Positions 1,578-33,096 of a stretch of DNA of 33,096 nt are shown in pieces (within the stretch, counting starts at the first letter, position 1; the number at the start of each line of letters is the position of its first letter). A program made the position numbers and the translations under genes. The notes beneath the pieces were generated by a model, which was not told the DNA's origin, did no database searches, and worked only from the letters and a program-made list of their open reading frames with translations. Origin of the DNA: a virus; the IMG/VR virus record IMGVR_UViG_3300021373_001348, positions 1-33,096 of that record, one strand, 5' to 3'.

Positions 1578-1977
1578 ACTTATCTCCTGTTATTTGTTCA
1601 TACATCCAGTCTAGGTTGTATATTCTGTTTGTACTTAATGTATTATACACTAGGTGCTCGCCTTTTGTCAACCAGAAAACATTTGAATATCCCAATAGAT
1701 ATGAAACTATATCAATATGTTTTGGTGAAAAATTGTCTATGTCAAGAATAACATAGTTGCTTCGATGTACAATGTCTAACAACCATTTAATTTCCATTTC
1801 ACTATCTGATTGTTCGTACATATATACATTAAGATTTTTATCAAAGTTTTCAATTAAATTTTGAAACTGTGACTTAGTATCGTCAGTTGGATAAATTAAT
1901 GCGAATGTTAAATTATAGTTGTTTAACTTATCAGGGGGCGTAATTAAATTTATTTTAAGTTGTTTATCGTTTTCCAT
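1567..1977 (-). CDS. Unknown 136-residue protein
   Basis: I do not recognise this protein. It is 136 residues long with no signal peptide or membrane segment. The alternating hydrophobic pattern (YNLTFALIYP, then SNYVILDIDNFSP and YLLGYSNVFWLTKGEHLVY) suggests a small alpha/beta Rossmann-like fold, loosely like nucleoside-deoxyribosyltransferase or TIR-like folds, but no catalytic residue can be assigned. The start at 1977 lies 28 nt inside the end of the membrane-protein gene with a poor Shine-Dalgarno, so translational coupling is likely. The 3' end carries the rpsU Shine-Dalgarno. Confidence 0.7.
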   Translation of the reverse strand: MENDKQLKINLITPPDKLNNYNLTFALIYPTDDTKSQFQNLIENFDKNLNVYMYEQSDSEMEIKWLLDIVHRSNYVILDIDNFSPKHIDIVSYLLGYSNVFWLTKGEHLVYNTLSTNRIYNLDWMYEQITGDKFES

Positions 1978-3731
1978 ATAGAGCCATCTTTTTGTTCTTC
2001 ATTCTGTATATAGCCCTCTTGTGTTTCTTTTTTCTTCTGAACTGAACCTTCTTTAGAAATAAAGTTCTTACTTTCTACATACCCTGCCCAAGGTACCTCG
2101 TCAATTTTACCGTCGATATATAATTGCTTAAAGAACTTTAGTGTTTGTCTAGGATTTTCATCTTTCCAACGTTGTTTAGCTTCTTGCCAAGTATCGTCTT
2201 CTTCTTGATCGTCTAGTTCTTTAACTCTTACTTCTTTTGATTCTTCCGAAAATTCTACTCTTTTTTTTTGAGTCTCGTCGTCAAACTCTTTGTCTAAGGT
2301 TTCTTGATCGACGTCTTCATAAGACTGTATTTCGTCTGGTTCCACTGGCTTAGTTGTTGCATCTGAATTGGTAGTATCATCTTCTGGTACCACGTCTCTA
2401 TCATCTCCATCTGGAGCAACATCATCTTCTGTAGCATTTACTTCTTCCTCTTCTTTAGGCGGCGTAGAATTGTCAGGATTATAAGGAACGTTGTCAACTA
2501 TACGCTGTGCTCTTGCTCGTTCGTATTCTTCTCTCTCGAGCCGAAGACGTTCACCGTTATCATCTTCAAGTTGTTTACGTCTAAACTCAAAGGTATATTG
2601 TGATGCGATTAGTAATAGTACTGCTAATGGATCAAACACAAAGATAATAATTATTATTACCCAACGTACAGCTTCTTCAAGCATATTATTATCTGCGGCT
2701 TCACCGTACACAAATTCAGCAATATATTTGATTGGTCCTACTTCTGCTTCTAATTTTCGATATTCTGATTCTAGTTCTATTTTCTCTTCTGTTAGTGTTT
2801 CTATCTCAGAAGATGCTGTTCGAACACGGTCTAGTTGTTCATCTATGGCCTTTTGTATATCATCTTGATTACTAGTATCGCCTAATTGATCGCGTAGTCT
2901 ATTAATTAATATGTTAGACTGTTCAATTTGTCTGTCAGCATTATCACGTAATCTTGCTATTTCTTTACGTGCTGCCTGAACTGTCGGACTGTTGGCAGCG
3001 TCTTGTATTTTAGTTAACCATTCACCACGTTCTGCCTGTTTTGCTTCCTTCCAGTCGCCAATTTTTTCTGCTGTTTTTTTACCAAAGATGCCGTCTGCAC
3101 TAGCACCAATCATTTGTTGTGCTTTTTTAACTTCACCGTTGTCTACATAACCTTGTAGTGTTTCTAGGTCTGCATCTATTTTATCTAATTCGTTTTGAAA
3201 TAACTGTGTAACACTTGCAATTATTTTATTTTGTTCTGCAATAGCAGGTTTAATTCTTTCGTATGCTGTGTCAATACGATCTTGTTCTTTATCAATTTGA
3301 CCTTGTATATTTTCGTCGGTGGCTGTTTCGCTTGACTCGAGTTGACGCACTCTATTTTCTGCACGACCAACAATACCTAGCTGCCTATCAATTTCATTTT
3401 GAATTGTTTCAACTCTTGCAATACTTTCTTCGCCTGCACTAGTTTGTTCAATATGTGCTTTTGACAAGAAACCAAAGATACCCATTGAAGTAATAAGCAT
3501 TAGTACAAAAACTGCTACACCTAAATAAGTCCTAAGCCACCAGGCGGCTTGTTTCCAATACTTGTGTAACCACACTGCGGTTACAAGTTTTCCAATTTCT
3601 AGTACCCCACCCATAATCATAATGGGAACGGCCGCTGCCGCAAAGATTGCAACCAATCCTGCAACAGAGTAGTATATTGCCACTGCACTAATTGCTAAGG
3701 CAGTGATGAGAGTTAGTATAGCTAAGAACAT
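1950..3731 (-). CDS. Membrane protein with long coiled coil and PG-binding-like motif
   Basis: A 593-residue protein of unknown function; similar architectures occur in other T4-like marine phages. The visible order is: two or three hydrophobic helices at about 3-50, another at 67-89, a long charged coiled coil at about 100-335, a further membrane segment at 356-378 (IIIIFVFDPLAVLLLIA), then a very acidic, Glu/Asp-rich cytosolic tail. Within the coiled coil, residues about 200-228 read like a degenerate PG_binding_1 repeat (AQQMIGASADGIFGKKTAEK), which in other proteins contacts peptidoglycan. This could anchor an inner-membrane protein to the wall. A weak late-promoter-like GTTAAATA is at 3736-3743, just before the ATG. 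It heads the bS21/guaC gene string. Confidence 0.8.
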   Translation of the reverse strand: MFLAILTLITALAISAVAIYYSVAGLVAIFAAAAVPIMIMGGVLEIGKLVTAVWLHKYWKQAAWWLRTYLGVAVFVLMLITSMGIFGFLSKAHIEQTSAGEESIARVETIQNEIDRQLGIVGRAENRVRQLESSETATDENIQGQIDKEQDRIDTAYERIKPAIAEQNKIIASVTQLFQNELDKIDADLETLQGYVDNGEVKKAQQMIGASADGIFGKKTAEKIGDWKEAKQAERGEWLTKIQDAANSPTVQAARKEIARLRDNADRQIEQSNILINRLRDQLGDTSNQDDIQKAIDEQLDRVRTASSEIETLTEEKIELESEYRKLEAEVGPIKYIAEFVYGEAADNNMLEEAVRWVIIIIIFVFDPLAVLLLIASQYTFEFRRKQLEDDNGERLRLEREEYERARAQRIVDNVPYNPDNSTPPKEEEEVNATEDDVAPDGDDRDVVPEDDTTNSDATTKPVEPDEIQSYEDVDQETLDKEFDDETQKKRVEFSEESKEVRVKELDDQEEDDTWQEAKQRWKDENPRQTLKFFKQLYIDGKIDEVPWAGYVESKNFISKEGSVQKKKETQEGYIQNEEQKDGSIWKTINNLK

Positions 3732-3770: not shown

Positions 3771-4208
3771 TTATATTCCTACCCAGCGCCATTCGTTCTG
3801 TGTACCACTACTTTGACAAGCAGTTTCTTCAAAATGCCGTGATTTACCTTTAACTGTAATCATACTATAAATTACACGGCAGTAACCACTGCTAATAGGA
3901 TACCCGTGTACTGCTTTTACACTGCCTTTAGCAGTGTCTTCGTACCAATTGTATACTATCCCATAGTCGCTTTCTAAAGCGGCGTGTACTGCACTATTTT
4001 GCTTACGCTTTTGCTCGTCTGTTAATGTATGCCTTGACCAATCTAACACGTCAATTACAAAAGTAAGCGAACTTGCTCCAGGCGAATAGTTTGCTTTTGC
4101 ACTTCTGTTAATGCTTTCACTTTGTTGTGGTAAAGTTCCACAAGCAGTGATGCTAATTAACAGTGCCGTTAATATTAAGAACTTCCCAACTACCATCGAG
4201 TTTCTCAC
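3771..4208 (-). CDS. Lipoprotein with 17-kDa-surface-antigen-like C-terminus
   Basis: A 145-residue secreted lipoprotein. The start is GTG at 4206-4208, chosen because AGGAG lies 6 nt upstream; an internal ATG is four codons later. The signal peptide (MVVGKFLILTALLISITAC) ends in a lipobox with the lipidated Cys about residue 23. The C-terminal part, with YCRVIYSMITVKGK and ETACQSSG before EWRWVG, resembles the end of the RT0821/Lpp0805 or 17-kDa surface-antigen family (YCREY...ACR...DGxW). It is the last of three overlapping lipoprotein genes, overlapping its upstream neighbour by 56 nt. The likely location is the outer membrane. Its role is unknown; receptor masking or superinfection exclusion is inference. 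Confidence 0.82.
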   Translation of the reverse strand: MRNSMVVGKFLILTALLISITACGTLPQQSESINRSAKANYSPGASSLTFVIDVLDWSRHTLTDEQKRKQNSAVHAALESDYGIVYNWYEDTAKGSVKAVHGYPISSGYCRVIYSMITVKGKSRHFEETACQSSGTQNEWRWVGI

Positions 4209-4491
4209 AACGTACTCCTCTTACTTCTACTGTTGTATTCCATCGACGTTCAGGGTAAAAGAATTCTTCACACTTTGAGTCGATACCTGCTCTTGCAATT
4301 TGCATTTGTTGTCCAGGACGATCTGTACATTGTACAACTGTTGTACTACTTACGTTAGTACCGTCCTGTTTAACTATTGCTTGGTCTGTATAACAATATT
4401 GTGGAGTATAATCGTATTGATGATTACTAGCACATCCTGTTAGACCTAAAATTCCAATGCTAGTTATTAGAAGCAATTCTCGCACTTGCAT
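4153..4491 (-). CDS. Lipoprotein, unknown family
   Basis: A 112-residue lipoprotein with signal peptide LLLITSIGILGLTGCAS; the lipobox is LTGC. The mature part is small, with four Cys after the lipidation site (YCYTDQ, VQCTDRP, SKCEEF, VRCEKL), consistent with periplasmic disulfides, and ends DGSWEVLNING. Start: the ATG at 4489-4491 is only 1-2 nt after GGAG, whereas a GTG at 4483-4485 lies at proper spacing, so GTG may be the true start. It overlaps the first lipoprotein gene by 32 nt. I do not recognise a named family. Confidence 0.78.
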   Translation of the reverse strand: MQVRELLLITSIGILGLTGCASNHQYDYTPQYCYTDQAIVKQDGTNVSSTTVVQCTDRPGQQMQIARAGIDSKCEEFFYPERRWNTTVEVRGVRCEKLDGSWEVLNINGTVN

Positions 4492-4957
4492 TCTCCGCTA
4501 CTAATGAATCAAAAACTGCTTTGGGCATTTTAAGTTTTACAAACGTATAGTGTTTGCCTGCGTAGATATAAGTTCCACGTTCTTCTTCAAGATGCTGTGT
4601 AATTGCTGTATCTGATACTCTGTACGAGATAGTAGTACGGGTAGTTTTTACATCGTTTACAAAATCTAATTTTGTTTCGCTGTTAACTAATCCGTTAATT
4701 CTTTTTGCAAAGTTATTCATTGAGATTGCATACATTTGTTCTTCTGCCGCTTGTTGATGAATACTTTCACCTGCGCCACACGCATATGCAAATTCTTCTT
4801 TCCACCAAAAGAATCCTTCAGCGCCTGATTGAGCGCACGAAGCATACCATTTTGGTTGTGCGTAACTATCACGTTCTGCAATAGTTGTTGTAGTTGAACA
4901 AGCGCCTAGTGTTAGTACAATTGCGCCTGCTGTTAAAGCCTTAGTAAAGCCTTTCAT
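4460..4957 (-). CDS. LPP20-like lipoprotein
   Basis: A 165-residue lipoprotein. The signal peptide MKGFTKALTAGAIVLTLGAC ends in a clear lipobox, Cys20. The mature part starts near PKWYASC and has the LPP20-type pattern (W-Y..C, then ACGAGESIHQQAAEEQMYAI and FAKRINGLVNSET) followed by a strand-rich half. LPP20-type lipoproteins of proteobacteria are outer-membrane proteins of uncertain function. GGAGG lies at good spacing before the ATG. This is the first gene of the lipoprotein triad and lies 42 nt from the -10 element of a sigma70-type promoter, suggesting early or independent expression by host RNA polymerase. Confidence 0.82.
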   Translation of the reverse strand: MKGFTKALTAGAIVLTLGACSTTTTIAERDSYAQPKWYASCAQSGAEGFFWWKEEFAYACGAGESIHQQAAEEQMYAISMNNFAKRINGLVNSETKLDFVNDVKTTRTTISYRVSDTAITQHLEEERGTYIYAGKHYTFVKLKMPKAVFDSLVAENASARIASNN

Positions 4958-4998
4958 TTATGCCTCCATAAAGTGAGTTGTTTATTCATTATGTTTAT

Positions 4999-5027
4999 AG
5001 TGTATGATCATTTTATTAAAATGTCAA
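4999..5027 (-). promoter_or_regulatory. Sigma70-type promoter for lipoprotein triad
   Basis: On the minus strand TTGACA (5022-5027), a 17-nt spacer and TACACT (4999-5004) precede the first lipoprotein gene. The -35 is perfect and the -10 matches at four of six positions. This would let host RNA polymerase start the triad independently of late transcription. Confidence 0.6.
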
Positions 5028-5041
5028 TAGTTTTTGGTAAA

Positions 5042-5545
5042 TTAATCTTGTCGATAAAAGATGTGTTCGCCAATTCTACCAATTAGAGTAAAATGTCTTG
5101 ACCAGTCAGGAGATACATATTTTGCGTGGTAGTGTGTTGCGCCTTCAGTTATACCTACAAAATCTCCATATGTCATCATATTATATGCTACGTGTTGTGA
5201 TTCTACCCAAGCATCCATATTAGTAGGCCAATCACTCTTACCGTCACAATACCAACTGAACTGACAACGATTACGTATCATACGTCCGTCGGCATACTGT
5301 TTGCCTTGTTTTACTACAGTACAAATTGTGTTTGGATATCGATTATCTTTTACACGATTTAATACAACGTCAGCAACAGCCATTCGATCAGCACGATTAC
5401 TGGAACGTGCTTCGTAATAAACGTTTTGTGCTAAACACCACATCTCCGGCTGGTCGTCTGCTGTAAACAATCCTTTGGCTTGACCTGCTTGTGCAAAACT
5501 TAAACTTGCTAAACAAAATCCAACTACTGTGATTAAATTTTTCAT
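5042..5545 (-). CDS. Secreted SleB/CwlJ-like cell-wall hydrolase
   Basis: A 167-residue protein of the Hydrolase_2 (SleB/CwlJ) type. After a cleavable signal peptide (MKNLITVVGFCLASLSFAQA) comes the family core: LAQNVYYEARSSNRADRMAV with the likely catalytic Glu, ADVVLNRVKDNRYPNTICTV, QFSWYCDG and a GATHYHA...PDW segment. Members cleave peptidoglycan glycan strands. The Sec signal means it can reach the periplasm without a holin, acting as an exported endolysin or a wall-remodelling enzyme. AGGAG lies 6 nt before the ATG. It sits between the lipoprotein triad and an unknown gene, 2 nt from the latter, so both probably use the strong promoter at 6030-6058. Confidence 0.9.
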   Translation of the reverse strand: MKNLITVVGFCLASLSFAQAGQAKGLFTADDQPEMWCLAQNVYYEARSSNRADRMAVADVVLNRVKDNRYPNTICTVVKQGKQYADGRMIRNRCQFSWYCDGKSDWPTNMDAWVESQHVAYNMMTYGDFVGITEGATHYHAKYVSPDWSRHFTLIGRIGEHIFYRQD

Positions 5546-5547
5546 AA

Positions 5548-6000
5548 TTATCTCCTCATCTTTGCAATTTCTTCTGCCTGTTTAGTGCCACGCATCACAG
5601 GAACAGCATTTGACTTATGCATTGTAGCAATACCTACAATAAGATCACCTGTATACTTTGGTGACTCTTTCTTAGTACCACCTGAACAACCTCTATTAAA
5701 TGTACCGTTCTTGATTGCTTCTTCCATTGCAGAAGGAATCTTAGGATCATTTCTACGCCAAGATGTATCTGGTGTATATGTGCCTCTACTTTTTACAGGG
5801 GCTTTGTATTCACCACGAACATACGAAATGTAGTCGTCTACTGTGTTGTACTGTAATGAGTGATTGTTTGCTCGACGCATTGCTTTGTTGTGCTTGCGCC
5901 ATTCGATAGTATACCTTTCGATATCTTTTTGTGTTAGAGGCTTTTTCTTACGCTTCTTAGTATTGATGGTACTAAGGCCTCTTGCTAAATGCATTGTCAT
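5548..6000 (-). CDS. Unknown basic phage protein, 150 residues
   Basis: A soluble, Lys/Arg-rich protein of 150 residues; I recognise it only as the kind of hypothetical found in marine T4-like phages. It has a basic N-terminus (KKRKKKPLTQ near residue 16), a helical stretch around ERYTIEWRKHNKAMRR and a C-terminal GDLIVGIATMHKSN segment. No enzyme motif is visible. GGAG is properly placed before the ATG. It is the first gene after a strong sigma70-type promoter, so it is likely early, and the exported cell-wall hydrolase follows after 2 nt. Confidence 0.72.
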   Translation of the reverse strand: MTMHLARGLSTINTKKRKKKPLTQKDIERYTIEWRKHNKAMRRANNHSLQYNTVDDYISYVRGEYKAPVKSRGTYTPDTSWRRNDPKIPSAMEEAIKNGTFNRGCSGGTKKESPKYTGDLIVGIATMHKSNAVPVMRGTKQAEEIAKMRR

Positions 6001-6009
6001 TGCCTACTC

Positions 6010-6040
6010 CGTGCCTATATTATAGTAATACTATAGCACG
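6010..6040 (-). promoter_or_regulatory. Dyad overlapping the -10: candidate operator
   Basis: An odd palindrome TATAGTAATACTATA (6021-6035) is flanked by matching CGTGC (6010-6014) and GCACG (6036-6040) arms. It covers the -10 and start point of the promoter at 6030-6058, where a repressor dimer could act. No binding protein can be named. Confidence 0.4.
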
Positions 6041-6058
6041 GGTAGGCTACAATGTCAA
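6030..6058 (-). promoter_or_regulatory. Strong sigma70-type promoter
   Basis: On the minus strand TTGACA (6053-6058), exactly 17 nt, then TATAGT (6030-6035) drives the 5548-6000 gene and probably the cell-wall hydrolase. The match (11 of 12 consensus bases) implies use by unmodified host RNA polymerase. Confidence 0.75.
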
Positions 6059-6077
6059 ACTTTATTTTGCCAAAAAG

Positions 6078-6551
6078 TTACTTTTTGCCTTCCATTAGTT
6101 TTACGGCAGCATCATAATCTTCTTGTGCAATTACACCTTCACGAAGCAGTTTCATTCTGTTGGCCAGGTGCTTTGTTTGGATTTCTTCTTTTGATCCGCC
6201 AAAATATGCTACAGCGTGTCCTTCTTCAACTAGGATGTCTGTTACTAACTTGCCGTCAATTTTAAAATCTCCTAATACACGACCAAACTTGCCTTTCATA
6301 TCTTCGCCTTTGCGATCTTCTGTAGTAATAAGTTTTGCACCATTTTTCATAAGTTCTTTTAGTCTTGCTTTGGCTGCTTCACCAAATAAGTCTTCTACTT
6401 TATCTCTTGTTCTTGATTCAGGAGTATCAATGCCCATTATACGAACACGCTCGTCTGTTAGTGTTACTCCAAATCCTAGATCAATATCTACATCTACTGT
6501 ATCGCCGTCTACTACTTTAATGACTTTTACATCATATTCATTCTTTTGCAT
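6078..6551 (-). CDS. Thermonuclease (SNase-like)
   Basis: A 157-residue staphylococcal-nuclease fold protein. The hallmark VVDGDTVDVDIDLGFG is at residues 13-28, and VRIMGIDTPE at 36-45 holds the equivalents of catalytic Arg35 (Arg37) and Glu43 (Glu45); Arg91 in GKFGRVLGDF is the third catalytic residue. Calcium-dependent cleavage of DNA or RNA is the known family activity. There is no signal peptide, so it likely acts in the cytoplasm, for example in host nucleic-acid breakdown. GAGGG lies 7 nt before the ATG, and the gene follows the 6569-6940 membrane protein by 17 nt. Confidence 0.93.
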   Translation of the reverse strand: MQKNEYDVKVIKVVDGDTVDVDIDLGFGVTLTDERVRIMGIDTPESRTRDKVEDLFGEAAKARLKELMKNGAKLITTEDRKGEDMKGKFGRVLGDFKIDGKLVTDILVEEGHAVAYFGGSKEEIQTKHLANRMKLLREGVIAQEDYDAAVKLMEGKK

Positions 6552-6568
6552 TTTATTTCCCTCGTTGT

Positions 6569-6940
6569 TTATTCATCTAAGTTTAATGCTTGATCGCCCC
6601 ATTCTTCCATTATAAACTCTCCAAATGCTGTTCCGAAGAGCCACATAAATGTTAGAATTATTACTCCTACACATATTATAAGAAGCCATACTAAAATTTT
6701 TATTATAATATGTTTGCCTTCCGTCCAATGTGCTACTTTCTTTATTTTGTTTTTTACGCCGCCGAGCAGATACTCTCCAATAACCCAACGTGCTAATCTC
6801 ATTACAATTAGTATTGGTGAACTTAGCACATCAAACAATATTAAGAATAAGTCTACACTAGCATCTATAATATTGTCAACATTAAACCAATTGCGAATAC
6901 GTTCAACACGTTCTTTGCGTTTTTGCTCGCGCTTGTCCAT
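6569..6940 (-). CDS. Small membrane protein, two hydrophobic segments
   Basis: A 123-residue protein I do not recognise. It begins with a highly charged helix (KREQKRKERVERIRNWF), followed by an amphipathic or hydrophobic stretch at about 28-60 and a clear membrane helix at about 80-105 (IIKILVWLLIICVGVIILTF), with an acidic end. Charge and length would fit a holin-like or inner-membrane accessory protein, but nothing proves this. A late-promoter octamer ACTAAATA lies at 6967-6974, 27 nt upstream, directly after the terminator of the preceding gene. Confidence 0.75.
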   Translation of the reverse strand: MDKREQKRKERVERIRNWFNVDNIIDASVDLFLILFDVLSSPILIVMRLARWVIGEYLLGGVKNKIKKVAHWTEGKHIIIKILVWLLIICVGVIILTFMWLFGTAFGEFIMEEWGDQALNLDE

Positions 6941-6966
6941 TTGCCCTGCCCTTTATATGCTAACAT

Positions 6967-6974
6967 TATTTAGT
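6967..6974 (-). promoter_or_regulatory. T4-type late promoter octamer
   Basis: ACTAAATA on the minus strand, between the terminator at 6978-6998 and the gene starting at 6940. It shares the TAAATA core with eleven other upstream sites in this window. Confidence 0.5.
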
Positions 6975-6977
6975 CAT

Positions 6978-6998
6978 AAAAAAAGGCCCGAAGGCCTT
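6978..6998 (-). terminator. Rho-independent terminator
   Basis: On the minus strand a 6-bp stem AAGGCC/GGCCTT closed by a TTCG tetraloop is followed by an uninterrupted T tract. It ends the beta-barrel gene that stops at 7020. Confidence 0.9.
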
Positions 6999-7019
6999 AA
7001 TTTATTCTATTGCAACTAA

Positions 7020-7622
7020 TTAAAATGCAATATTAAATTTGACTTCAATTTGCTGTTCAGCCTCATTTAAGTCTTGATCCATTTCGTGTCTTATTGCGAC
7101 AACAAAATTAGATTTTTCAGATACTGGAAGTTCTACACCCAGTTTAGCGTAAGAGTTTAATCCCGATACATCTAGGAAGTCGCCTTCATATGAAACCCAG
7201 TCATAACCAGCTTCCACAAATGGAACAATTTTGCCAACTGGTATTTTCACACCAACGAAAGGACTAATACGTACTTCGTCTTTGTCATAGCTGTCACCTA
7301 ATGTGTAGTGAGTTTCGAAAGTTGCATATGGAGTCGCGCCAGGCAATGAATAGAAAACGCCTTTACTTGCTGTAAAACGGTAATCTTCTAATCCATCTTT
7401 TTCAATGTACTGGAGACCAAGGTCAACTAGATTTCCATTCGTGTTTATTCCAAACACAATTGAATCGTCTGCAAAATCAAAATTTGATCCTGTAAAAAGA
7501 CTTACTCCAAACTTCTCACCTTGTGCATTAATTGCATAAGAGTGATTATCAAAATCTTTTGCTGAAGCACTGCTTACAGAAAAAGAAAAGGCCAAAACGG
7601 CCAACATCAATAAATTTTTCAT
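7020..7622 (-). CDS. Outer-membrane beta-barrel-like protein
   Basis: A 200-residue secreted protein. The signal peptide MKNLLMLAVLAFSFSVSSASA is followed by alternating hydrophobic/polar strands typical of a small outer-membrane barrel (for example FGVSLFTGSNFDF, ISPFVGVKIPVG, IVPFVEAGYDWVSY). The C-terminal strand ends in Phe (IEVKFNIAF), the BAM-recognition signature. The length suits an 8-stranded porin-like or OmpA-like barrel. It has its own late promoter (TATAAATA, 7673-7680) and terminator, so it is monocistronic and probably abundant late. Phage outer-membrane proteins can replace or mask receptors or porins; its exact role here is not known. Confidence 0.85.
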   Translation of the reverse strand: MKNLLMLAVLAFSFSVSSASAKDFDNHSYAINAQGEKFGVSLFTGSNFDFADDSIVFGINTNGNLVDLGLQYIEKDGLEDYRFTASKGVFYSLPGATPYATFETHYTLGDSYDKDEVRISPFVGVKIPVGKIVPFVEAGYDWVSYEGDFLDVSGLNSYAKLGVELPVSEKSNFVVAIRHEMDQDLNEAEQQIEVKFNIAF

Positions 7623-7672
7623 AATAATTTTTCCTTATTTTTGTGTTGTTGTGCATTGCACGATCAACATAT

Positions 7673-7680
7673 TATTTATA
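7673..7680 (-). promoter_or_regulatory. T4-type late promoter TATAAATA
   Basis: An exact T4 late -10 octamer on the minus strand, 51 nt before the start of the barrel gene at 7622. Confidence 0.7.
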
Positions 7681-7724
7681 ATTAGTGAGTAATAATGTAA
7701 CAAAAAGTGAACTAAAATTAAAAT

Positions 7725-7751
7725 AAAAAAAGGGCGACACAAAGCCGCCCT
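7725..7751 (-). terminator. Rho-independent terminator
   Basis: On the minus strand the arms AGGGCG and CGCCCT (7746-7751 with 7731-7736) enclose a 9-nt loop and are followed by seven T. It ends the gene at 7774-8175. Confidence 0.88.
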
Positions 7752-7773
7752 AGTTAAAAAGTATATCTTATAT

Positions 7774-8175
7774 TTAGAAGTTAAATGATACACCTATTTC
7801 AATTTCACCACGTGCTTCTGTATTAAAGTCATATGATGTTTCTCCGTATAATGTCATTGCACTTGATACTGAATAATCTACGCCCATTTCGAGTAATGGT
7901 GTTTGTCCATCTTCTAAAATGTTGCTTAATGCAAAATCACTACCTGAAGTATGATTTGTTTCGTAAACTGTAATTGGTGCTTCTGCCCAAAGTGCCAGTG
8001 GGCCAGCTGCTGGTGTCCAACGAAGTTCTGGTTCAATAGTTACGTGATTAGTTTCAGCATCTATTTTGTGGAATGCTTTTGCTTCTGTGTTAATTTCTAG
8101 ACCATTGCCTAGGTCTGCTGCCATTACAGGCGCTGTAGCCATTGCGGCTACTATTGCTAGTACGATTGTACGCAT
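7774..8175 (-). CDS. Small outer-membrane barrel-like protein
   Basis: A 133-residue secreted protein with signal peptide MRTIVLAIVAAMATAPVMAA and repeated amphipathic strands (ALWAEAPITVYET, LLEMGVDYSVSSAMTLYGET, ARGEIEIGVSFNF) ending in Phe, as outer-membrane barrels do. It looks like a shortened relative of proteobacterial porins; only about 113 mature residues remain, too few for a classic 16-strand porin. AAGGA lies 8 nt before the ATG. A late-like but imperfect TATAAAAA is at 8195-8202. It has its own terminator downstream and the tmRNA terminator upstream, so it stands as a single unit next to another barrel gene. Confidence 0.82.
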   Translation of the reverse strand: MRTIVLAIVAAMATAPVMAADLGNGLEINTEAKAFHKIDAETNHVTIEPELRWTPAAGPLALWAEAPITVYETNHTSGSDFALSNILEDGQTPLLEMGVDYSVSSAMTLYGETSYDFNTEARGEIEIGVSFNF

Positions 8176-8302: not shown

Positions 8303-8335
8303 TAAAAAAGAGTGTTACATCTCTGCAACACTCTT
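8303..8335 (-). terminator. Rho-independent terminator of the tmRNA gene
   Basis: On the minus strand a 9-bp perfect stem AAGAGTGTT/AACACTCTT (8327-8335 with 8308-8316), a 10-nt loop and a T-rich tail. It closes the tmRNA transcript and insulates the next barrel gene. Confidence 0.88.
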
Positions 8336-8624
8336 AATGCTATGTTTGGTAACAAGGTCTAACTACCTCGTAGTAGCCCTTAGGCTGCTAATGCGAAGTT
8401 TTCGTTTGCTTCTATTTGTTTTCTTGCGATAACCGTGCTTGCGCCGGGCAACTCCACTCTTCTACTAATCCGCCTGTCGATCCTAGTTCAGCCCCATCAA
8501 AAATACATTCTCAGTTTATCAGTCTGTTGCTTAGTGCTATACACCTAGCAGAATGTATTTTTGGTGGAGCTGTCGGGTACCGCCCCCGAGTCCAGCTCGT
8601 CGTTTGAATTGCTTCAACGTTACA
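8308..8624 (-). ncRNA. ssrA: Circularly permuted (two-piece) tmRNA
   Basis: Transcribed right to left, the acceptor piece comes first. T arm 8589-8573: stem UCGGG/CCCGA with loop GGCGGUA. The acceptor 3' strand CAGCUCC (8572-8566), discriminator A and an encoded CCA (8564-8562) follow. A 66-nt intervening segment (8496-8561) starts a 13-bp hairpin (8499-8511 with 8550-8562; its last pairing base is the terminal A of CCA). The coding piece begins GGGGCUG (8495-8489), pairing with CAGCUCC as a 7-bp acceptor stem, then AACUAGGAUCGAC. An H-type pseudoknot (CCG/CGG crossing GCG/CGC, 8447-8426) precedes the resume codon GCA (8409-8407). The tag reads ANENFALAA and stops UAA (8382-8380); it would follow the Ala carried by tmRNA. 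A small hairpin ACUAC/GUAGU follows. Permuted genes are known from alphaproteobacteria and some cyanobacteria; this tag is of proteobacterial type. The exact mature ends are unknown. Confidence 0.95.
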
Positions 8625-8630
8625 AGTATA

Positions 8631-8659
8631 TTTATAACACAGAAATTATTATATGTCAA
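8631..8659 (-). promoter_or_regulatory. Sigma70 promoter of the tmRNA gene
   Basis: On the minus strand TTGACA (8654-8659), 17 nt, then TATAAA (8631-8636) places the start near 8624, just before the acceptor piece. It overlaps the stop codon of the 8656-8982 gene. Confidence 0.8.
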
Positions 8660-8982
8660 CCTAAAATCAAATCCATAGCAAACTTTTTGTCTTCTATATC
8701 TTCGGCAGTTAAGCCCTTGTCTTCTTTTTTAGGCTTAATAGGTTCTAACCAACTGTCTGCAATGTATGCACGTGGTGATGGTCCAAGCATAATACTTAAA
8801 TCTTCTGCTTCAATCCACCAAAAGTTATCTGTAACAGCAGCCTGGCACATCATTCCGTTAAAATGAAAATGTGTACCTCTTTCAAAATGTCCAATAAGTT
8901 CAGCAACTTTTACAATGCGCCCAATGTTCTCAGGACGTACACTATATTTTATAACTGCTAAATCACCTTGTTTACATTTCAT
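8656..8982 (-). CDS. Unknown small soluble protein
   Basis: A 108-residue protein beginning MKCKQGDLAVIKYSVRPENI, a strand-rich start like small SH3/KOW-type barrel proteins that occur as hypotheticals in bacteria and phages. It contains a hydrophobic WWIEAEDLSI segment and an acidic-basic C-terminal tail. No catalytic motif is seen. It overlaps the preceding gene by 11 nt. The tmRNA promoter lies across its stop codon, so the two transcription units touch. Confidence 0.65.
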   Translation of the reverse strand: MKCKQGDLAVIKYSVRPENIGRIVKVAELIGHFERGTHFHFNGMMCQAAVTDNFWWIEAEDLSIMLGPSPRAYIADSWLEPIKPKKEDKGLTAEDIEDKKFAMDLILG

Positions 8983-27886: not shown

Positions 27887-28288
27887 TTAATTGCCTTGGT
27901 CGTTAACAGAAAATAAGATGTTCTTGTCTTTTCCTGTAGTTCGGAATAATGCCTTGTCTGTGTCTATAGTTTCGTTTAAGCCTGTAATGATCGGTATAAG
28001 ATCAAAATCTTCTGTAAGCATATCTAAACTAAGTCCGCCTTCATATTCTATATAAAAATCGAACGTCCAAACGTTTTGCTTACCTATGTATTTATCACTA
28101 AAGTCAAATTTACTAGTCGATAACTTGTCAAAACTTGGACTATTATCATAAAAAACTTGAGTACGTAGTCCTAAAGTTTGTAATAATGTTTGGAAATTTG
28201 CCTGTTGTTTATAAGCAAACTTATCATTGTCTTGACGTCTAGCTTTTGTTTCAGTAATGTCTATTAGTGTATTGATACGGAAGTTCAT
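27887..28288 (-). CDS. Unknown conserved-type phage protein
   Basis: A 133-residue protein from the ATG at 28286-28288 (MNFRINTLIDITETKARRQD), the start I prefer from recalled T4-like cyanophage relatives that begin near the same motif. Alternatives are 28306, directly after the T tract of a terminator, and 28360, inside the hairpin. The fold looks beta-rich (VWTFDFYIEYEGGLSLDMLT). No Shine-Dalgarno stands out for any start. Expression likely depends on read-through of the terminator. Confidence 0.68.
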   Translation of the reverse strand: MNFRINTLIDITETKARRQDNDKFAYKQQANFQTLLQTLGLRTQVFYDNSPSFDKLSTSKFDFSDKYIGKQNVWTFDFYIEYEGGLSLDMLTEDFDLIPIITGLNETIDTDKALFRTTGKDKNILFSVNDQGN

Positions 28289-28306
28289 ACTATTACTTAT
28301 AGCCAT

Positions 28307-28337
28307 AAAAAAAGGCCCACTTAAAAAGTGAGCCTTT
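28307..28337 (-). terminator. Rho-independent terminator
   Basis: On the minus strand a 12-position stem (28326-28337 with 28311-28322, one C/A mismatch), a 3-nt loop and seven T. It ends the 28382-28639 gene. Confidence 0.88.
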
Positions 28338-28381
28338 AGTGTGACGCCTTGCAACATCACGATACCTAAGGTAGTTAGGAA

Positions 28382-31847: not shown

Positions 31848-32618
31848 ATGGGTATTTCAAAAATGACTTTCACTGAGCGTTCTCTGCTGTTTGCAAAACT
31901 TAGTAGTATTGCTTACAATGATAACATCAAAGAAGTAAAAAGTCAAGCAAAGCAATTAGGATTTACAACAGTAGAATTTTATAATAAAGAAGGGGCACAA
32001 GCCTATCGCTTTATGAACAAGAACGATCTTGTCATTGCGTGTCGCGGAACACAACCAAGCGAATTCAACGATATTAGTGCAGACTTAAAAGCATTACCGG
32101 TTGTTGCAGAAACTATATCACGAGTTCATCAAGGGTTTAAGGATGAAGTAGACGAGCTATGGCCTATGGTGTGTGAAGATATATCACGTACTGTTAACAT
32201 AGGTAAAAAGTTATGGATGTGCGGTCATAGTTTAGGAGCCGCAATGGCAACTATTATGGCTAACCGTTGCGAATGTGATACAACATTAAATAATCCGGAA
32301 GAGCTTTATACATATGGTAGCCCACGAGTAGGTTGGCCAACATATGTCAAGAGCTTTGGTACTGTTCATCATAGATGGAAAAACAATAATGACATAGTCA
32401 CAACAGTTCCACTTGTATTAATGGGCTTTAGACATTGTGGTACTGAACATTACTTAAATGCATATGGCAAATATCGTAAACCTACTGGCTGGCAAAGAGT
32501 TAAAGACAAATGTCGCGGCATATGGATGGGTCTAAAACAAGGTAAAATAGATAGCTTTAGTGACCATTCAATGGACGAGTACATTAAGCATTTAACAGAT
32601 CTACAAGAACAAGTTTGA
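31848..32618 (+). CDS. Class 3 lipase
   Basis: A 256-residue alpha/beta hydrolase and the only plus-strand gene. The nucleophile elbow GHSLGAA holds Ser128, the ND-I-V segment after HHRWKNN gives Asp182, and FSDHSMDEYI gives His240, the complete triad of the Lipase_3 family. The early RGTQPSEFNDISADL loop is typical, as is RHCGTEHYLN. It has no signal peptide, so it would meet lipids from the cytoplasm. AGGGG precedes the ATG. It is driven by its own late octamer and converges on prs, overlapping by 18 nt. A role in membrane lipid breakdown at lysis or in lipid remodelling is inference. Confidence 0.9.
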   Translation: MGISKMTFTERSLLFAKLSSIAYNDNIKEVKSQAKQLGFTTVEFYNKEGAQAYRFMNKNDLVIACRGTQPSEFNDISADLKALPVVAETISRVHQGFKDEVDELWPMVCEDISRTVNIGKKLWMCGHSLGAAMATIMANRCECDTTLNNPEELYTYGSPRVGWPTYVKSFGTVHHRWKNNNDIVTTVPLVLMGFRHCGTEHYLNAYGKYRKPTGWQRVKDKCRGIWMGLKQGKIDSFSDHSMDEYIKHLTDLQEQV

Positions 32619-33096
32619 TACTGATTCCTCGTTAGACACACGCCTAATTGCTTCACCAAGTAATTGAGACACGCTTACTTGGCGTGTCTTTTTACAATTC
32701 TTAGGGCAACGATTCTTAATTGTATCTGTTACTACAAGTTCGTCTAGTACACTCTTCTCAACCTTTTGACACGCTTCTCCACTTAGTACACCGTGGGTAA
32801 TATATGCACGAACTGATAGTGCGCCTGCTTTCATAATTGCTTCGGCTGCTTTACATAGTGTTCCGCCTGAGTCAACAATATCATCTACTAGAATAGCGTG
32901 TTTTCCTTCTACATCACCAATCAATGCCATTACTTCACTCTTGCCTGCTTCAGGTCTACGTTTGTCAACAATAGCAATGTCGCCATTAAACATATCAGCA
33001 AACTTACGAGCTCTCACAGCACCGCCCGCATCTGGTGATACAAATACTGTGCCTGCTTGTTCAACATCTGGGTCATCAATAATACCAATAGTGCGT
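32601..33096 (-). CDS. prs: Ribose-phosphate pyrophosphokinase, 5'-truncated by window edge
   Basis: The frame is open to the right edge (165 residues seen). It matches the C-terminal half of bacterial PRPP synthetase: VFVSPDAGGAVRARKFADMF, VDKRRPEAGKSEVMALIGDV, the PRPP-binding loop VDDIVDSGGT, a THGVLSG segment and the end LGEAIRRVSNEESVSNLFL. The enzyme makes PRPP from ribose 5-phosphate and ATP for purine and pyrimidine synthesis. With guaC and nrdA/B it forms a nucleotide-supply set. The stop TAG at 32601-32603 lies within the convergent lipase gene. Confidence 0.96.
   Translation of the reverse strand, partial: RTIGIIDDPDVEQAGTVFVSPDAGGAVRARKFADMFNGDIAIVDKRRPEAGKSEVMALIGDVEGKHAILVDDIVDSGGTLCKAAEAIMKAGALSVRAYITHGVLSGEACQKVEKSVLDELVVTDTIKNRCPKNCKKTRQVSVSQLLGEAIRRVSNEESVSNLFL

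Follow-up and report, generated by a model that had tools for sequence, protein, structure and literature searches.

Small outer-membrane barrels with a signal peptide are already known in phages: T4-like marine cyanophages carry the Phage_OMP type (PF24653, also DUF680 or PhCOG173), and cyanophage S-SM2 possesses a tandem pair of such genes, annotated as DUF680. Here, we analyzed a 33-kb virus record of IMG/VR (IMGVR_UViG_3300021373_001348, positions 1 to 33,096, hereafter the window), in which two barrel genes, OMP200 and OMP133, lie close to an operon of three lipoprotein genes (LP165, LP112 and LP145) and a gene for an exported SleB-type cell wall hydrolase. The window barrels also form a pair, but they stand beside a gene for transfer-messenger RNA (tmRNA), which serves in ribosome rescue, whereas the S-SM2 pair stands beside pstS-phoA; in addition, they score below the Pfam cut-off and OMP200 is longer, with 200 amino acids (aa). 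With modest confidence, we propose that the locus consists of two neighbouring envelope modules: a conserved core driven by sigma-70-type promoters, and variable, moron-like barrels that would reach the outer membrane of the host at a late stage of infection. The window phage is T4-like and marine and its host is probably not a cyanobacterium; when the window DNA was compared with 50,697 phage records, all 20 matches listed, out of 44 records, lay at the marine cyanophage ribonucleotide reductase.

The lambda morons Lom and Bor each come as a lone gene flanked by a promoter and a terminator of its own; the product is an outer-membrane barrel or a lipoprotein. The window barrels differ from them in belonging to a T4-like phage and in being, apparently, read late in infection and not in lysogens. 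Pelagimyophages and phage Melnitz, which are related marine T4-like phages, encode an outer-membrane pore in a curli-pore (CsgG/CsgF) cluster (PMC7029224, PMC9004378), and its proteins differ from the window barrels. Melnitz resembles the window in its two-piece tmRNA and in its SleB gene, adjoined by an LP165-like gene (1.8e-37). Phage Mosig carries another LP165-like gene (5.4e-13), and no LP165-like gene was matched in S-PM2, S-SM2 or phage C48C1. However, neither Melnitz nor Mosig matched PF24653 or our profiles of the two barrel families (A1 for OMP200 relatives, A2 for OMP133), and other genes follow their tmRNA. SleB-type phage endolysins (PF07486) share the sequence family and the signal peptide of the window hydrolase, which differs in having a conserved sigma-70-type promoter upstream and in being coupled to lipoprotein genes. 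A literature search covering few subscription journals returned no description of the lipoprotein operon or of the tmRNA-barrel slot, which is weak evidence of absence.

Gene content and the lipoprotein core

The minus strand carries nearly all window genes, including the whole block at 3771-8175, and coordinates below refer to this strand unless stated. The block contains nine genes: LP145, LP112, LP165, the SleB-type hydrolase, g150, a staphylococcal-nuclease homologue, a 123-aa membrane protein, OMP200 and OMP133, the LP and OMP names being given by protein length. Using a simple signal scan, we observed export signals in six of these nine genes and in one of the 37 other called window genes (hypergeometric P 5.9e-5, to be read with caution since the region was picked after the fact because of its export signals). 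The sole exported call outside the block, at 27887-28360, may be a false positive. The six exported proteins are the three lipoproteins, the wall hydrolase and the two barrels, and the genes of the nuclease homologue, g150 and the membrane protein are interspersed among them. The initial annotation had reported six secreted or surface proteins in a single envelope-remodelling island; the six proteins are indeed present, whereas the unity of the island did not survive the comparison with relatives, in which the lipoprotein block is conserved and the barrels occupy a variable slot.

Relatives' loci were taken from IMG/VR searches (labels L001 etc.), which recovered 4 loci for OMP200, 3 for OMP133, 68 for LP165 and at least 80 for SleB. 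Their common gene order is nrdA, nrdB, glutaredoxin, g119, small genes, nuclease, g150, SleB, LP165, LP112, LP145, TM593, g136 and g98, and the run from SleB through LP165, LP112 and LP145 to TM593 is kept in most LP165 loci. The lipoprotein block is thus part of the conserved core and not of the variable slot. One contig filed in a Rickettsiales metagenome-assembled genome (L169) turned out to be a phage fragment that carries the entire block, and its SleB has an N-terminal membrane-anchor-like segment and a coil.

Of the block's proteins, LP165 (4460-4957, lipobox LGAC) shows the strongest conservation, with 57-91% identity across its viral loci, and its lipobox cysteine is invariant in 29 of 29 aligned sequences. 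The same holds for LP112 (4153-4491, lipobox LTGC; 19 of 19 aligned sequences), which overlaps LP165. LP145 (3771-4208, lipobox ITAC) uses a GTG start within LP112 and, as read off the alignment, is a lipoprotein in some relatives and exported by a signal peptide alone in others. These overlapping reading frames suggest coupled translation. Family resemblances were weak: LP165 recalls LPP20 (PF02169), for which the profile test was negative with the window protein and positive with 3 of 29 relatives (best 0.0029), and LP145 recalls the 17 kDa surface antigen (PF16998), matched by 3 of 19 relatives (best 4.3e-4) and not by the window protein. Profile searches with LP165 and LP145 against the PDB found no relative, single-sequence Pfam and PHROG searches with the lipoproteins gave nothing useful, and LP165 had no tblastn match in the 50,697 phage records.

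Promoter classes before the core and the barrels

A plain promoter scan of the window was at chance (54 sites vs 53.6 in shuffles), and support for promoters therefore comes from conservation in relatives. For this comparison, we counted motifs within 130 bases upstream of the genes of every family, after removing near-duplicate regions, and set the counts against shuffled sequence. In the window, the lipoprotein operon is preceded by TTGACA-17-TACACT (5027-4999) with the upstream box TTTACCAAAA (4999-5040 in all), and g150-SleB by TTGACA-17-TATAGT with an upstream TTTGGCAAAA box (6030-6074). We observed the strict sigma-70 pattern before LP165 in 33 of 52 relatives, where 0.40 were expected, and before g150 in 47 of 65 (0.48 expected), as well as before nrdB (29/42; 0.30 expected) and g98 (27/50; 0.62 expected); before LP145 it was found in 0 of 39. 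The early-type promoter announced for the lipoproteins in the initial annotation is consequently a conserved feature. A box related to TTTACCAAA stands just before the -35 at LP165 (20/52) and g150 (20/65), with fewer than 0.1 expected in either case, and was not found at nrdB promoters. In the window, a TTTACCAAA or TTTGGCAAA box occupies 5033-5040 and 6066-6074 before the LP165 and g150 -35 and may be a regulator site.

The barrel genes presented a different picture. Of 46 barrel genes, 17 have the motif NATAAATA 30-125 bases upstream, compared with 2.67 expected and a maximum of 10 in 200 shuffles, and none of the 52 LP165 or 65 g150 genes has it at that distance; nor was it enriched before SleB (2/107 vs 4.4 expected). 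Barrel NATAAATA sites lack a -35, with a mean of 2.76 matches of 6 against a background of 2.53; the OMP200 site was left out of this set as near-identical to that of L002, which has 4 of 6. The exact late-type motif TATAAATA lies at 7673-7680, 51-58 bases before OMP200, which bears out the earlier report of such a motif at one or more barrels. T4 early promoters are described as sigma-70-like and late ones as TATAAAT (PMC3037559, methods); by its TATAAATA-type -10 and its want of a sigma-70 -35, the OMP200 site would count as a T4-type late promoter. As expected of a late promoter, NATAAATA also precedes in the window the operon of a 2116-aa tail-type gene (16817) and a 579-aa fibre-type gene (23086), both designations being our own. 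An exact TATAAATA is present as well 44 bases upstream of a lipase-like gene, judged by eye, at 31848-32618, the sole plus-strand gene among those called. A 155 kb phage contig (G004) was meant for calibrating the late motif on capsid genes, and no capsid gene was recognised in the proteins scanned, so that only the tail and fibre genes support the calibration. This relative (L172-L179) encodes GroEL, an ATP-dependent protease, radical SAM proteins and a cytidyltransferase, and is perhaps part of a larger genome.

Two other signals were rejected. The enrichment of NATAAATA before TM593 (15/52) was attributed to ribosome-site proximity, as 13 of the 52 lie 8-29 bases from the start, and a leader hairpin that follows the barrel promoters is not specific to barrels, since leaders with the motif show it in general (16 barrels with a mean z of -2.1, 84 controls with one of -1.3). 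Overall, the comparison of upstream regions gives good support to two promoter classes. The staged control put forward in the initial annotation holds as far as these classes go, and early and late timing is what we infer from them.

The barrel proteins and the slot downstream of the tmRNA

OMP200 (7020-7622) has a signal peptide and was predicted to fold as a porin-like beta-barrel, with a predicted local distance difference test score (pLDDT) of 85 and a predicted template modelling score (pTM) of 0.75. Among solved structures, KdgM-type porins come closest to it (Z 14.3, root-mean-square deviation 2.4 over 144-145 residues, 6% identity), KdgM being a 12-strand porin, and autotransporter barrels practically tie with them (Z 14.0). 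For OMP133 (7774-8175), also with a signal peptide, the prediction was a small beta-barrel and was weaker (pLDDT 77, pTM 0.63, best Z 8.8); among its viral fold matches, DUF680 or "cyanophage outer membrane protein-like" entries took ranks 1, 3, 6, 7 and 8. These models, which the initial annotation had suggested as a check, indicate a signal peptide with a closed antiparallel barrel for OMP200 and, more weakly, for OMP133. Each gene is followed by a strong intrinsic terminator (6998-6983 after OMP200, 7751-7731 after OMP133), as had been noted before.

In comparison with PF24653, whose cut-off is 27 bits, OMP200 reached 21.2 bits (3.6e-4) and OMP133 13.7 bits. Among the OMP200 relatives, 12 of 21 match Phage_OMP PF24653 (E up to 0.1, best 5.4e-10) and 6 of 21 match OMP_b-brl, and profile A1 matches the DUF680 gene SSM2_218 of S-SM2 at 1.2e-7. 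Profile A2 found no cyanophage member, and the link of OMP133 to these proteins is by fold matches only. With tblastn, neither barrel had a match in the phage records. The likeness to cyanophage Phage_OMP/DUF680 makes the earlier idea of an undescribed takeover system only partly right: the barrel type was known, and it is the operon and the tmRNA-barrel linkage for which the literature search found no description. An iterated search first joined the two barrel families, possibly driven by the signal peptides, and when it was repeated on mature parts, the OMP133 profile still took in some 195-aa members, mostly between 1e-14 and 1e-5. Further OMP200-like barrels without the late motif occur downstream of a 2OG gene in L012 (15331-15924), L017 (15390-15974), L018 (11364-11957) and L009 (17680-18276); the window ends before the matching place.

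Just upstream of the barrels, the window has a permuted (two-piece) tmRNA of alphaproteobacterial type (8336-8674; RF04321, 103.3 bits with a cut-off of 47; RF01849, 88.5 bits, also over its cut-off), followed by a terminator-like hairpin at 8308-8335. ARAGORN found no tmRNA in the window, where the Rfam models did match. A tmRNA was present in 22 of 26 scanned relatives, those of L056, L067 and L070 matching the betaproteobacterial model. Eighteen of the 26 loci had been chosen for a barrel-family gene, and eight lacked one or were not in the interval list. Fifteen of the 18 have a tmRNA, and the barrel is the first or second open reading frame (ORF) after it in 15 of 15. Seven of the eight others have a tmRNA, too; a signal-peptide barrel-like ORF comes right after it in L037, L056, L067 and L070 (by eye and from an internal start in L070) and none was seen right after it in L019, L027 or L081. 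The tmRNA promoter, TTGACA-17-TATAAATA (8629-8659), has a perfect -35 and a -10 that doubles as the late motif. It was rejected as a late promoter and counted as sigma-70-type because a perfect TTGACA stands 17 bases upstream in the window and 17 of 17 motif-bearing tmRNA sites have a perfect -35; in agreement with this, the Melnitz tmRNA is placed just downstream of an early promoter in the corresponding passage of PMC9004378.

Between nrdB and g150, we found a barrel-family gene in 26 of 50 distinct intervals. Other intervals hold signal-peptide proteins with barrel-like ends, such as Gcw_chp proteins in L056 (2.1e-49) and L123 (1.7e-9), and proteins of 348-357 aa in L019, L035 and L049, whose barrel nature was judged by eye. 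Those of L019 and L049 had no Pfam match, and the porin-like slot proteins of L049 and L042 had no tblastn match in the 50,697 phage records. The slot occupied by the barrels, immediately downstream of the tmRNA, thus varies in content, and in relatives it holds barrels of other sizes and families. At its two ends, the window carries frames cut by its limits, GMP reductase- or IMP dehydrogenase-like by eye at 1-700 and PRPP synthetase-like by eye at 32601-33095.

Phage lipoproteins and barrels with receptor-altering roles include T5 Llp, phage Cor and lambda Lom. Barrels of differing families and sizes in one slot are what surface diversification would be expected to produce, and the window barrels might alter or mask surface receptors, excluding other phages or keeping progeny off debris. 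However, no receptor is known and late expression fits exclusion poorly, and we regard this role as rather doubtful. An equally uncertain role would be that of channels admitting nutrients, above all phosphate or other small solutes, and so increasing uptake while the phage replicates: the S-SM2 tandem PF24653 pair lies directly before pstS and phoA, the OMP200 model has KdgM-type porins as best PDB fold matches, and a part of DUF680/PhCOG173 in phosphate limitation is suggested in the discussion of this gene in PMC6224464 and PMC9146016. Yet no phosphate gene was recognised beside the window barrels, late expression would be late for feeding replication, and a common fold, which autotransporter barrels share at almost equal score, shows no function. 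In S-TIM4 populations evolved on Synechococcus WH8102, DUF680/PhCOG173 mutations together reached about 100%, and its expression is speculated by the authors to carry a fitness cost on that host (PMC6224464, evolution experiment). The initial annotation had offered early receptor masking and late porin replacement as examples, and our results demonstrate neither. We make no choice between a role in taking up nutrients and one in guarding the cell from other phages; most likely, the barrels are small channels or surface proteins changing permeability or receptor exposure.

Two proposed envelope modules and the case for lysis

In the two-module reading that we favour, g150-SleB, then the overlapping LP165-LP112-LP145, then TM593 would form a core under sigma-70-type promoters, read by the host polymerase from the start of infection and supplying the cell at an early stage with three lipoproteins and an exported wall hydrolase. 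The slot downstream of the tmRNA would accommodate a single barrel gene or a pair, with a terminator for each gene in the manner of morons, OMP200 having in addition its own putative late promoter. After export, the barrels would fold into the outer membrane of the host at a late stage of infection, altering there what crosses or binds the cell surface.

Several results weigh against this reading. The window OMP133 has no exact TATAAATA or NATAAATA, 29 of the 46 barrel genes have no late motif, and NATAAATA precedes nrdA in 4 of 14 cases, so the motif is not exclusive. A comparison of the two barrel families by hhalign aligned the signal peptide only, and we therefore do not claim homology of OMP133 and OMP200 as proven. 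Mass spectrometry of one cyanophage, S-SZBM1, detected its DUF680 protein in virions by two peptides (PMC9146016, virion proteome). Together with the late-type motif before barrels, this would suit barrels that are virion proteins or assembly leftovers; but the S-TIM4 DUF680 protein is classed as not particle-associated where PMC6224464 sorts its proteins, and the Sec signals and the barrel folds are what one expects of outer-membrane proteins, which makes a virion role improbable.

The last point against concerns SleB (5042-5545), which has a Sec-type signal, belongs to Hydrolase_2 (PF07486, 2.4e-22; 79.9 bits over a cut-off of 27), a family matching 1228 phage records, and has a PHROG endolysin as match (1e-21). 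For the families searched (GH108, phage lysozyme and M15 peptidase), it is the sole wall hydrolase in 7 of 8 long records, probably fragments, with GH108 in one and the other two families in none; this fits plain lysis, and SleB may simply be the endolysin. Directly before SleB lies the conserved gene g150, for a basic cytoplasmic protein (5548-6000). TM593 (1950-3731) is of the inner-membrane type, with a coiled central part and hydrophobic segments, and adjoins hydrolase or lipoproteins in relatives; it directly follows SleB without lipoproteins in five loci (L081, L082, L085, L087 and L101), and in Mosig a glucosaminidase adjoins a TM593-like gene. All this is compatible with a lysis cassette, in which SleB would be a Sec-exported endolysin, the lipoproteins spanin-like outer-membrane parts and TM593 a membrane trigger. 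Nevertheless, the promoter before nrdB belongs to the same strict class as those of the block, the late motif is not enriched before SleB, and before TM593 it lies too close to the start for a promoter. We consider a lysis cassette a serious possibility, though not the expected one.

In its broadest form, our proposal is of a two-stage envelope programme in a widespread marine T4-like lineage. In the early stage, a wall hydrolase and three lipoproteins would be delivered to periplasm and membranes; in the late one, unrelated outer-membrane channels from an exchangeable cassette beside the tmRNA would refit the surface. We put this forward tentatively, as an idea with less than an even claim. 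Outer-membrane proteins encoded by the phage itself are found repeatedly among marine T4-like phages, and we met no proven function for them. The conserved lipoprotein operon and the interchangeable barrel slot offer defined genes with which questions of nutrient uptake, phage exclusion and lysis control can be addressed.

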